This document shows, piece by piece, positions 3,101 through 5,979 of a stretch of 5,979 bases of DNA. The notes under the pieces were generated by a model. The model saw nothing but the letters and a program-made list of their open reading frames with translations. It did no database searches and was not told the DNA's origin. Origin of the DNA: Planctomycetota bacterium (lineage in GTDB: Bacteria; Planctomycetota; Brocadiia; JAJRTI01). Every line of letters begins with the position of its first letter. Within the stretch, counting starts at the first letter, position 1. Position numbers and translations under genes: made by a program. The stretch lies in assembly GCA_024278415.1 (NCBI GenBank), contig JAJRTI010000726.1:1-5979 (forward strand). Reading direction: 5' to 3'.

Positions 3101-5566
3101 TCAGCGCCGCGGCGTCCACTTGCCATCGCCATCCGCGTCGATCCAGATCGGGTTGGTCACGGCGAAGGGAGTGACGGGCTCAGAACGATAGTCGGGGTAC
3201 ACCGGGCTGAGGGCAGCGATGCCGGACACGACCGCTACGATCCACGAGTCGCGGCGAATGGGGTAGCGCAGGCGCCGGTCAAAACGCTCGACCACCCCCG
3301 TTTCGGGCAACGGGAACGCATCGACAACCGCGCCATTGACAACGAACTCAATCTTGTTCGGCTGCACCCAGGGCGCACAAAAAACGCGGCCGCGCACGTC
3401 GATTTCGCCATCGCTGTCGCTGACCATGCTGCCAATGACGCCGTCGCGGTTGACGGTGATATACACCATGGGGCCGTTGGTGACAATCGCGCGGCGGCGC
3501 GTCTTGATCGCGGCCGTGATGCTCTCCAGAGAGACGCGCACGACCGAGTCCGTGCCCACGTAGAGCATCGTGCGCGGGCAGCCGGCCTCCTGCGTCACCG
3601 CCATGTGGCTGTCGGACCCGCCCACCGCGGTGAACCGATGGCCCGCGTTGAGCAGCGCAAACCAATCCCGCAGCACCCGATCCGCGGCGGCCACGTGCTT
3701 GCCGTTCAGCACCTCGATTGCGTCGAAGTCCAGCGACATCCCGGGGCCGGCAAGCCCGGTCTTGGGGTCGAACTTCACGCGGTTGAAGTAGCCCAACCCG
3801 CCCGCGCGCGGGTGGTTGACTTGCACGATCGCGCCGGGGTTCAGCCGGCGCAACTCCTCGAAGATCGTCGCCGCATCCTTGCCGCGGTGGTCCACCGGCC
3901 CCAGCCGCGGGTTCCGCGGCACAAGCGGCATGGGGTACGCGTTGAAGTGGCCCAGCGTGTTCGTCGTCACCTCGTTGCCCACGAGCGCGGCCACGAACTT
4001 CGTGAGGCCCAACTCGCGGATCGTAGGGGCCAAGTCCGTGTGGCGGTCGTGGTCGGTCACCGCGGCCACTTCCACACCCTCGCAAGCGTCCGTGATGACG
4101 CGGTCCTTGAATGCGAGCGCGCTGTCAAAGCTCGCGGCGGTGTGCTGGTGGAGGTCCGCCGCGAGGTAGCCCTTGGTGGGCACGACGCGGCGCAGCGTTG
4201 CCCGGATGTGCTTCCGTTCGCCGCTGGCGATGAAAAACGTCTGCTGGTGCAACGTATACTCGATGCCGCGCGAGGCCACGACGAGGTAGTTGCCCGGCGC
4301 GATCGGGGCGTCGGCCTTGCCGTATGGCACGAACACGACGTTCCTCGCGCCGGCCGCGGTGTACGTCGAGCCGAAGTCGGGCGTGGGCGTGGACGCGGCG
4401 CCGAGGAAGGTGAACTTGGCTGGGATGGGCTCGCCGGCCTCGTCCACGGCCTCCAGTGTGAGTTGCGCGGGCTCGCCGAGTTCGCCGTCGAAGGCCACGG
4501 CCCGGCTGGGCTCGATCCGGACGGTGAACTCTCCCATGGGCTGCCGGTTGTGCGCGGTCGGCCGGAGCTTGTACAAGCCTGGGCGGAGGCTGGCGGCATA
4601 TGCACCCCAGGGGTCGGTCTTGGCAATGCCCACGATCTGGCCGCGCATGTCTCGAATCTCGATGGCCGCGTTGGCGATGGGCGCCTTGGTCTTGGACGAC
4701 CGGAAGCGGCCGGAGAGGCTGCCCACTTGGTCGCCGCGCACGAAGAAGCATTCGTCGCTGATGCCGGTGCTGCCGCCGATGCCGACTGCGAAGTGGCGCG
4801 TGTACGTGGCCGCGCTCCCCACCGGGATATCCGGCGCGGACACGATCACGTCGGACCACCCTGATCCGTGCCGGGTTTGCATGCTTCTGCTGCCGACGAA
4901 CATGCCGTACGACGCGAAGTCGCCCACGCCCGCGAGCCATACGAGCTTCGGCTTGCGCCCACCCAAATCGCGGCCGAAGCCTTGCGCGAAGTGATCCACT
5001 GCGCCCCATTGGATCGCGTCGCCGAGAGCGAACGCATCGAGCGGCTTGTCCGTGTGGTTGGCCACCTGGGTCGTGAGCGTCACGTGGCGCTGCCCGGGCC
5101 AAAGCTGATAGGTCGTCGCCACGCGGATGCCCGGCTGCTCGCAGTCAACGCCTTCCGCGCGAATCTCCGCCGGCTCGTGTTCTCCGCCTGCCTTGACGAT
5201 CGCCACGGACTGGTACACGGCCTGGCGCGGGAAGGTGTCCGCGAAGTAGGTGAACACCTCCTTGAGCAAATCCACGTTCGTGCGTTTGTCGCACGCGTCG
5301 CGGATGTTGCCGCCAGACTTGGAGCCCCCCGAGGGCCGCTGCACCGCGGAGATAATGACCCGGATCAGTTCGTTTTCGAGCACGTAATCGCCCGGCAGGC
5401 CATTGGCCGCGGGGCCGGGGATCATGTCCTTGGGCGTGGCGATGCGCGCGGCGGCGAAGGGCCGTTCCGGCTTGGGCGGCTCCACCACGGCCCGGCGCCA
5501 GCAGCCAGCGATGCACGCCGCGGCCGCGAGCCACAGGCAGGTCCGCTTGTGTGGGGAAGGGCGCAT
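3101..5566 (-). CDS. Lipoprotein with C-terminal PHP-type metallohydrolase domain (CehA/McbA-like)
   Basis: Predicted exported lipoprotein of 821 residues. The start at 5566 gives MRPSPHKRTCLWLAAAACIAGC, a basic head, hydrophobic core and lipobox IAGC with acylated Cys22, and is preceded by GAGG eight bases upstream. Starts further out would run through a palindromic repeat. Residues about 45-265 look like a beta-rich domain (DYVLENELIRVIISAVQ onward). About 282-345 resembles a carboxypeptidase-regulatory-like beta-sandwich (GRFRSSKTKAPIANAAIEIR to GLYKLRP). The PHP domain spans about 465-690 with the metal-ligand set DLHQHT (Asp471, His473, His475), TDHD (Asp505, His506), GNE (Glu532), GHFN (His540), NHPR (His585) and GSDSH (Asp652, His654), so the active site looks intact. 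The C-terminus ends WIDADGDGKWTPR, an acidic loop that could bind calcium. CehA hydrolyses carbaryl, but family members vary widely and the substrate here cannot be told; phosphoester or other ester hydrolysis at the envelope is a guess. Confidence 0.9.
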   Translation of the reverse strand: MRPSPHKRTCLWLAAAACIAGCWRRAVVEPPKPERPFAAARIATPKDMIPGPAANGLPGDYVLENELIRVIISAVQRPSGGSKSGGNIRDACDKRTNVDLLKEVFTYFADTFPRQAVYQSVAIVKAGGEHEPAEIRAEGVDCEQPGIRVATTYQLWPGQRHVTLTTQVANHTDKPLDAFALGDAIQWGAVDHFAQGFGRDLGGRKPKLVWLAGVGDFASYGMFVGSRSMQTRHGSGWSDVIVSAPDIPVGSAATYTRHFAVGIGGSTGISDECFFVRGDQVGSLSGRFRSSKTKAPIANAAIEIRDMRGQIVGIAKTDPWGAYAASLRPGLYKLRPTAHNRQPMGEFTVRIEPSRAVAFDGELGEPAQLTLEAVDEAGEPIPAKFTFLGAASTPTPDFGSTYTAAGARNVVFVPYGKADAPIAPGNYLVVASRGIEYTLHQQTFFIASGERKHIRATLRRVVPTKGYLAADLHQHTAASFDSALAFKDRVITDACEGVEVAAVTDHDRHTDLAPTIRELGLTKFVAALVGNEVTTNTLGHFNAYPMPLVPRNPRLGPVDHRGKDAATIFEELRRLNPGAIVQVNHPRAGGLGYFNRVKFDPKTGLAGPGMSLDFDAIEVLNGKHVAAADRVLRDWFALLNAGHRFTAVGGSDSHMAVTQEAGCPRTMLYVGTDSVVRVSLESITAAIKTRRRAIVTNGPMVYITVNRDGVIGSMVSDSDGEIDVRGRVFCAPWVQPNKIEFVVNGAVVDAFPLPETGVVERFDRRLRYPIRRDSWIVAVVSGIAALSPVYPDYRSEPVTPFAVTNPIWIDADGDGKWTPRR

Positions 5567-5595
5567 GTGCTGAGCCTCGTGCTGCGGCGTCGGCA

Positions 5596-5619
5596 GTAGC
5601 CGCATCCGCCGGGAGGCGG
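5596..5619 (+). repeat. GTAG-led palindromic repeat, family 2, copy A
   Basis: GTAG (5596-5599) is followed by CCGCATCCGCC and GGGAGGCGG; CCGCC (5606-5610) pairs with GGCGG (5615-5619) around GGGA. It differs from copy C at four of 24 positions. Its first 15 bases are the inverse complement of 5657-5671 with one mismatch. Confidence 0.75.
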
Positions 5620-5640
5620 GCCAACTGGAGATTGGCCTAC
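5619..5640 (-). repeat. GTAG-led palindromic repeat, family 2, copy B
   Basis: On the minus strand GTAG (5640-5637) opens a palindrome with stem GGCCAA/TTGGCC (5619-5624 with 5632-5637 on the plus strand) and a seven-base plus-strand loop CTGGAGA. The loop resembles that of copy C (CTGGCGA) while the stem is completely different, yet still complementary. Confidence 0.7.
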
Positions 5641-5647
5641 AGAACGC

Positions 5648-5671
5648 CCGCATTCTGGCGAATGCGGCTAC
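5648..5671 (-). repeat. GTAG-led palindromic repeat, family 2, copy C
   Basis: On the minus strand GTAG (5671-5668) is followed by a perfect 8-bp stem: CCGCATTC (5648-5655) with GAATGCGG (5660-5667) around TGGC. It is the inverted partner of copy A; together they bound a 76-bp unit with 14 of 15 matching terminal bases. In minus-strand direction copies C and B are in tandem about 31 bp apart. Confidence 0.78.
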
Positions 5672-5698
5672 CGCCGGCCCGCGCCCTCGTTCATGCCC

Positions 5699-5979
5699 TT
5701 ATTGCCCTGGGGGCTTGGCCGCGGCTCCGCCGGCGGGCTTGGCTTGGACGCCTTGGGGCGCCTTGGGCTTGGCTTGGGCGCCTTGGGGTGCCTTGGGCTT
5801 GGAGCCGGCAGGGGCGGCAGTCGAGGTCGCGGCTGCGACGGCCGCGGCTTGCGCCGCCTTGTAGGCCTTGCGCGCGGCTACGGCCGCGGCGTCCAACTGC
5901 TCATTGAGCTTCTTGTTATTCTCCATGAGCGCTTCGAGGCGTTTCTTCGCCGCGGCCTCATGCTCTTGCTGCTTCTTCA
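5699..5979 (-). CDS. C-terminal end of an Ala/Lys-rich coiled-coil-like protein, start outside window
   Basis: I do not recognise this gene. The frame is open from the right edge (first full codon at 5977) to TAA at 5701-5699, giving 92 residues. The first half, KKQQEHEAAAKKRLEAL then MENNKKLNEQLDAAAVAARK, has the Lys/Glu/Gln/Leu pattern of a helical coiled coil. An alanine-rich stretch follows (AAQAAAVAAATSTAAPAG), then a tail of KPKAPQGAQA-type decapeptides ending AAAKPPGQ. An internal ATG at 5926 could open a 75-residue protein, but no Shine-Dalgarno precedes it and the same composition continues upstream, so a partial longer gene is more likely. Such tails occur in envelope-spanning or nucleic-acid-binding proteins; no function is claimed. 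Confidence 0.65.
   Translation of the reverse strand, partial: KKQQEHEAAAKKRLEALMENNKKLNEQLDAAAVAARKAYKAAQAAAVAAATSTAAPAGSKPKAPQGAQAKPKAPQGVQAKPAGGAAAKPPGQ
5735..5802. repeat. 30-bp in-frame tandem repeat within the coding tail
   Basis: Two full units (5735-5764 and 5765-5794) differ at two positions, and a partial third runs to about 5802. Thirty bases keep the frame, so the repeat encodes the decapeptides KPKAPQGAQA and KPKAPQGVQA. Unit number is likely to vary between strains. Confidence 0.85.

Follow-up and report, generated by a model that had tools for sequence, protein, structure and literature searches.

A probable head-to-head GTAG REPIN on a Planctomycetota contig, and a divergent RAYT-like gene flanked by the same REP family

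The window analysed here is a whole contig of 5979 bp, and we conclude, with a probability of about 0.88, that its segment 5596-5671 is a REPIN, a non-autonomous, RAYT-mobilised element made of two GTAG REP palindromes placed head to head between co-directional genes. Most of the work on REPINs has been done in a small number of Proteobacteria. The GTAG REP family to which this element belongs was met in this analysis only in Planctomycetota, Lentisphaerae and Verrucomicrobia, and in four genomes its REPs lie on both sides of a divergent RAYT-like gene.

The original prediction of two GTAG-led palindromes facing each other over 76 bp, with 14 of 15 terminal bases matching, proved exact, and 22 match when the comparison is extended to 26 bases. 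A covariance model (R1) built from 46 REPINs of other genomes, with the window left out, recovered the element and bore out its identity as a REPIN (E 1.7e-18), the next-best place in the window scoring 11.8 bits against 53.8 (Table 1). The element has the unpaired GTAG tag, the stem of 6-13 bp and the short loop of the GTAG REP superfamily. When folded as DNA, arm 1 reached -7.4 kcal/mol (6 of 200 shuffles equally good) and arm 2 reached -9.2 kcal/mol (0 of 200). A third GTAG-led palindrome had been described between the arms; it is present on the minus strand, but with only five perfect pairs it is weak, and 66 of 5000 spacer shuffles gave a stem of at least 5 plus GTAG or CTAC anywhere. Among the spacers of other REPINs (64 examined, 15-60 nt long), none contains a stem of at least 5, so that the middle hairpin is not a family trait, and the notion that it forms part of a shared design is unsupported. 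Apart from this hairpin and the points that depend on the host genome, the original prediction stands.

That design had been likened to a second element of the window, a member of another REP family at 537-652, in which two tandem GTAGTAGGCCCGTRAGGGCC units (537 and 575) face GTAGTGGCGACCGTAAGGGCGCC on the minus strand (652), with loops GTGA and GTAA closed by C-G. R1 has no match in this element at E values up to 1, in agreement with the claim that the two sequences are unrelated apart from GTAG. The loops of the second element, lying between C and G, do share the cGNNAg form with the arm at 5648-5671; as DNA, d(cGNNAg) makes a tetraloop of unusual stability.

Table 1. Coordinates of the REPIN, its parts and the neighbouring genes in the window
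Feature	Position	Strand	Remarks
Whole REPIN, head-to-head heterodimer	5596..5671	.	R1 model 53.8 bits, E 1.7e-18
REP arm 1, GTAGCCGCATCCGCCGGGAGGCGG, imperfect hairpin	5596..5619	+	one mismatch in 8-bp stem, loop GCCG
REP arm 2, GTAGCCGCATTCGCCAGAATGCGG, perfect 8-bp hairpin, loop GCCA	5648..5671	-	
REPIN spacer, 28 nt	5620..5647	.	weak GTAG-led hairpin at 5640-5620, minus strand
Downstream gene, lipoprotein-like protein	3101..5566	-	lipobox IAGC by eye; start codon 30 nt beyond REPIN
Upstream gene, cut by contig end	5699..5977	-	no Pfam match over cut-off

Far from standing alone, a possibility that the original prediction had named against itself, the element has hundreds of copies in related genomes. 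Members of the family have GTAGC, an outer stem that varies and TTC-GNNA-GAA as their core, the hairpins being written GTAGC..TTCGNNAGAA. With the perfect arm as bait (GTAGCCGCATTCGNNAGAATGCGG, exact matches only), the genome collection gave 108 loci under 22 assembly prefixes (our own count), all 108 of them in Planctomycetota, Lentisphaerae or Verrucomicrobia; viral contigs had no match to the bait. A search of Rfam gave no match at the gathering score. Once the pattern was relaxed to leave the outer stem more freedom (GTAGCNNNRTTCGNNAGAAYNNNG), 19 of the genomes selected by the bait yielded 678 forward and 665 reverse copies (1343 in all), and the reversed pattern, used as a control, yielded 0. 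These related genomes, which do not include the window's own, are element-loaded, with between 1 (G013) and 159 (G018) exact-pattern copies each, and two 8-kb queries from G011 matched several other repeat families elsewhere in both G018 and G019. In phylum samples that each include their bait-chosen centre genome (and, for Verrucomicrobiota, also G007), the pattern was found in 7 of 392 Planctomycetota and 8 of 288 Verrucomicrobiota genomes, with five or more matches in 8 of the 680. In either sample the reversed control had a single match in each of two genomes, so that single pattern matches prove little. The family is thus sparse across genomes and dense where present. With crude ORF calling, 141 of 244 REPs in the 108 loci lie outside ORFs of at least 200 codons, and such ORFs make up 84% of the bases.

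A tolerant finder applied to the 108 loci and the window recorded 246 REPs, arranged as 80 head-to-head pairs (including that of the window, and one artefact in which a REP overlaps itself), 9 tail-to-tail pairs, 11 in tandem and 62 singles. Both 24-mers are identical in only 17 of the 80 head-to-head pairs, which makes heterodimers the rule, as has been reported for most GTAG families (PMC3733652). With so many heterodimers in the family, covariation can tell which fold is selected. For the 46 head-to-head elements without the window, 98.2% of cells are paired within the arms, and 46 cells show changes on both sides; the corresponding figures for the long hairpin are 94.0% and 29 cells. The finder behind this set demanded 7 of 8 local pairs and so favours the within-arm fold in this comparison. 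When the stem filter was removed, 102 of 112 outer-stem cells paired in 28 distinct non-bait 24-mers, compared with 81.7 in shuffles, a value reached by 0 of 2000. The constancy of the GNNA loop is not independent evidence, because its G and A were written into the search patterns. Taken together, the covariation counts suggest that the selected fold is the hairpin of the single REP and not the long one, which is what a single-strand nuclease would need.

It is close to an even call, though we lean slightly against it, that the REPIN in the window is a dead, fixed relic in its host lineage, its mobility lost. Arm 1 differs from the family consensus at 3 of 14 core positions in addition to its stem mismatch, and the 28-nt spacer exceeds the mode of head-to-head pairs, whose spacer lengths peak at 18-20 nt. 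Arm 2, however, is a perfect member of the REP family, and imperfect arms are common among heterodimer copies.

The occupancy of individual sites was compared between congeners, using two 8-kb loci of G011 that were chosen, before any alignment, for holding two family REPINs each. Against G018 and G019, with identities of 84-96% in aligned pieces, the family REPIN was absent from the aligned place in all 7 of the resolved site-by-genome comparisons, none of which showed a perfectly clean empty site. The remaining one of the eight comparisons failed because the G018 assembly is split where G011 has its REPIN (L234, G018:C164; L236, G018:C57), as would be expected if repeats break contigs. At the place corresponding to L035:4565, both congeners (counterparts L232 and L233) instead hold a REPIN of the GTAGGTCAGCC.. 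family, a family also found, in G005 and G019 (L140, L184), on the flanks of another RAYT-like gene. This single intergenic site thereby carries REPINs of two unrelated families across three congeners, an arrangement that makes competition between elements testable. Pointing the other way, three groups of copies are, by eye, apparently common to congeners (L001/L007, L045/L069/L083 and L057/L074).

In the mechanism that we consider likely, each REP would fold by itself in single-stranded DNA, and a divergent RAYT, a HUH single-strand transposase of the TnpA-REP group, would bind the tag and hairpin, cut beside the REPs and move the doublet as a unit. We infer that cutting is the work of a RAYT of the type found at locus L088, that the two REPs move together as a doublet, and that such an enzyme is or was present in the host of the window.

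PF01797 (Y1_Tnp) genes are present in 18 of 19 REP-bearing genomes, and were rejected as a route to the cognate RAYT because none of 135 loci had family REPs on both sides within 700 bp; one of the 135 had them on one side only. These loci comprise 107 of the first 139 matches, the 32 in G013 (one REP copy) having been left out, and 28 of 36 further matches; left out of the latter were one that was in the count before, one that hit a frame for the second time, and six not fetched. GTAG-led perfect hairpins of other sequence lie on both sides of 15 of the 135. Comparison of the PF01797 proteins with the bait loci pointed instead to L088, in the Lentisphaerae genome G002. Its protein, a 211-residue reading with HLH and YILENP motifs, has six family REPs upstream and four downstream of or over the gene end. 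It scores 17.3 bits against PF01797 (cut-off 23) and 46.9 bits, E 2.6e-12, against the NF047646 model for REP-associated tyrosine transposases (cut-off 80). A single-sequence structure of the protein had a mean pLDDT of 36.5 and was not used.

An orthologue search at 45% identity or more, covering 25 REP-bearing genomes and 31 without exact-pattern matches, returned six genes including the query's own (G002, G011, G009, G567, G457 and G448), that of G009 being a fragmentary frame without the HUH part and that of G448 having one internal stop; 20 further genomes gave only weaker matches, below 45% identity. Four of the six have family-type REPs on both sides (numbers on the two sides: G002, 6 and 4; G011, 4 and 2; G009, 2 and 2; G567, 5 and 5); beside the G567 gene these form a tandem array and have a diverged stem. 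There, in L286 (G567:C70), the array surrounding the orthologue has units of about 116 bp, each with GTAGCCAGCCTCGCCAGAGGGTGG. R1 matches in all four REP-flanked loci, its training set holding one element from beside L088, and gave no match in L287, L288 and twelve stretches of genomes to which the 3101-5566 protein had led. Family REPs were found in just one (L312, about 0.9 kb away) of 24 other loci fetched from the orthologue search, several of whose genes had already been counted.

The four L088-type proteins score 46.9, 31.8, 59.9 and 34.9 bits against NF047646, and 17.3 and 11.8 bits against PF01797, with two giving no match to the latter; all lie under the respective cut-offs. A profile of four orthologues nevertheless finds the TnpA-REP structure 4er8 in the PDB (E 1.9e-5). 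Residues H77, H79, Y136 and N140 are invariant in the four proteins (alignment A1), which carry an HUH motif and a putative catalytic tyrosine with an asparagine at +4, and a C-terminal stretch (P161 G162 Y163 P164, F177 W178 and Y181) is also conserved. We label these proteins RAYT-like on the grounds of E-values, motifs and flanking REPs.

Orthologues are present in 4 of 25 REP-bearing genomes and 2 of 31 others (G457 and G448), the latter having no family REPs beside the gene. This distribution leaves room for a REPIN mobilised by an enzyme other than an L088-type RAYT, for example an ordinary RAYT acting in trans, a reading that we consider unlikely without dismissing it. In its favour are the 21 of 25 REP-bearing genomes without an L088-type orthologue and the near-universal PF01797 genes. 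On the other hand, it is beside the L088 type that the family lies on both sides, whereas no PF01797 locus has it on both sides and 15 of the 135 have other GTAG hairpins there; moreover, the bins have gaps, and contigs are broken by repeats. For the REP-bearing genomes in which no orthologue was found, the reason could lie in such gaps, in loss of the enzyme or in its action in trans. As to the suggestion in the original prediction that two RAYT enzymes may serve such elements, among these relatives other GTAG hairpins flank other RAYT-like genes, and the REP family flanks its own divergent RAYT.

Many different inverted or palindromic repeat families accompany the RAYT-like genes of these genomes (L131, L140, L143, L182, L184, L194, L200, L201, L207, L291, L295 and others), the flanking repeat sequence being mostly gene-specific. 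For other RAYT-like genes, at L197, L206, L211 and L296, the flanking palindromes have GTGG as their leading bases in place of GTAG. Also recurrent in Planctomycetota is a small protein of HUH type whose motif reads WTTYGTWLPGD or WRTYGTWLPGD (L180, L183, L187, L189, L193, L256, L258 and L260), with inverted repeats near several of these loci.

Within the window, the REPIN occupies a 132-nt spacer (5567-5698) with a minus-strand gene on either side, and the order on that strand is the cut ORF, the REPIN, the lipoprotein-like protein, a NupC-type nucleoside transporter, a purine nucleoside phosphorylase and EF-P. The 3101-5566 protein has a distant relative, P0037 (35% identity), named as a member of the CehA/McbA family (metallohydrolase), and its best whole-genome match is 40% in G039, the one genome of its class in the collection, where the stretches fetched for it showed no synteny and no REP core; at E 1e-100 it had no match in 288 Verrucomicrobiota genomes. 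The best named relatives of NupC and EF-P are from KSB1 (58% over 74% of the query) and Brocadiae (56%); Planctomycetes (56%) and Brocadiales (54%). The host probably represents a deep lineage of Planctomycetota-like bacteria. Relatives with the gene neighbourhood of the window probably exist.

As RNA, 5590-5677 folds at -59.4 kcal/mol (z -7.27), and as DNA at -32.5 kcal/mol (z -5.79), in each case with 0 of 200 shuffles as good. From the sequence, a strong hairpin would be expected in mRNA between the two genes, with no terminator predicted: an intrinsic terminator (a GC-rich stem followed by a T-run) was rejected, since 5450-5800 contains no terminator-like site and neither side of the REPIN has a T-run. 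This RNA folding and the position between co-directional genes are what one would expect of a hairpin that evolved in place as a terminator, attenuator or mRNA stabiliser, an explanation made very improbable by that lack of a terminator, by the hundreds of family copies next to unrelated genes, and by arms that co-vary locally and not with each other. Chance, for all that GC-rich sequence folds easily, is excluded as the origin of the palindromes by the folding shuffles and by the facing GTAG-led 15-mers (at most one mismatch, over 30-120 bp), of which the window has one and 2000 first-order Markov windows had none, as well as by the E value to the independent model.

On the REPIN reading, a RAYT type missed by standard models is now linked to its likely substrate. 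More tentatively, and with rather more doubt than confidence, we suggest that Planctomycetota, Lentisphaerae and Verrucomicrobia share a patchy REPIN family and, with it, a RAYT subclass of its own that has gone unrecognised, having a distinct C-terminal stretch and falling under current Pfam and NCBIfam cut-offs, that the two have passed between phyla as an enzyme-plus-REP pair, and that among congeners a given intergenic site is taken over in turn by competing REPIN families, each served by a different RAYT.

The kind of element described here is already known, since GTAG REPs in PVC bacteria, with head-to-head dimers and several families per genome, are on record (PMC3733652). The work in the cited REPIN and RAYT papers is mainly on Pseudomonas, E. 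coli and Stenotrophomonas. Our literature search, which drew on parts of these sources and placed the consensus list of the 24 published GTAG families (PMC3733652) outside the comparison, did not find this REP sequence paired with the divergent RAYT. The REPINs of Bertels and Rainey (2011, PMC3116915) resemble the present elements in their two inverted REPs with a short spacer, hairpin folding, mostly extragenic location and association with a RAYT, singlets being read there as remnants; they differ in REP sequence, and covariation here favours single-REP hairpins over the long hairpin. The GTAG REP superfamily of Di Nocera and others (2013, PMC3733652) is alike in the unpaired GTAG, the 6-13 bp stem and short loop, the head-to-head dimers and heterodimers, the several families per genome and the PVC hosts. 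Y1 transposases are diverse, with one class mainly in Planctomycetes (PMC6006769). The L088-type proteins resemble RAYT/TnpA-REP (PDB 4er8; PMC8266576, PMC6006769) in the HUH pair, in the tyrosine with an asparagine four residues on (Y136 and N140 in alignment A1; Y115 and N119 of E. coli in these papers) and in the REPs on both sides of the gene, but differ in scoring under the PF01797 and NF047646 cut-offs and in a conserved C-terminal stretch that lies beyond the part matched to 4er8.
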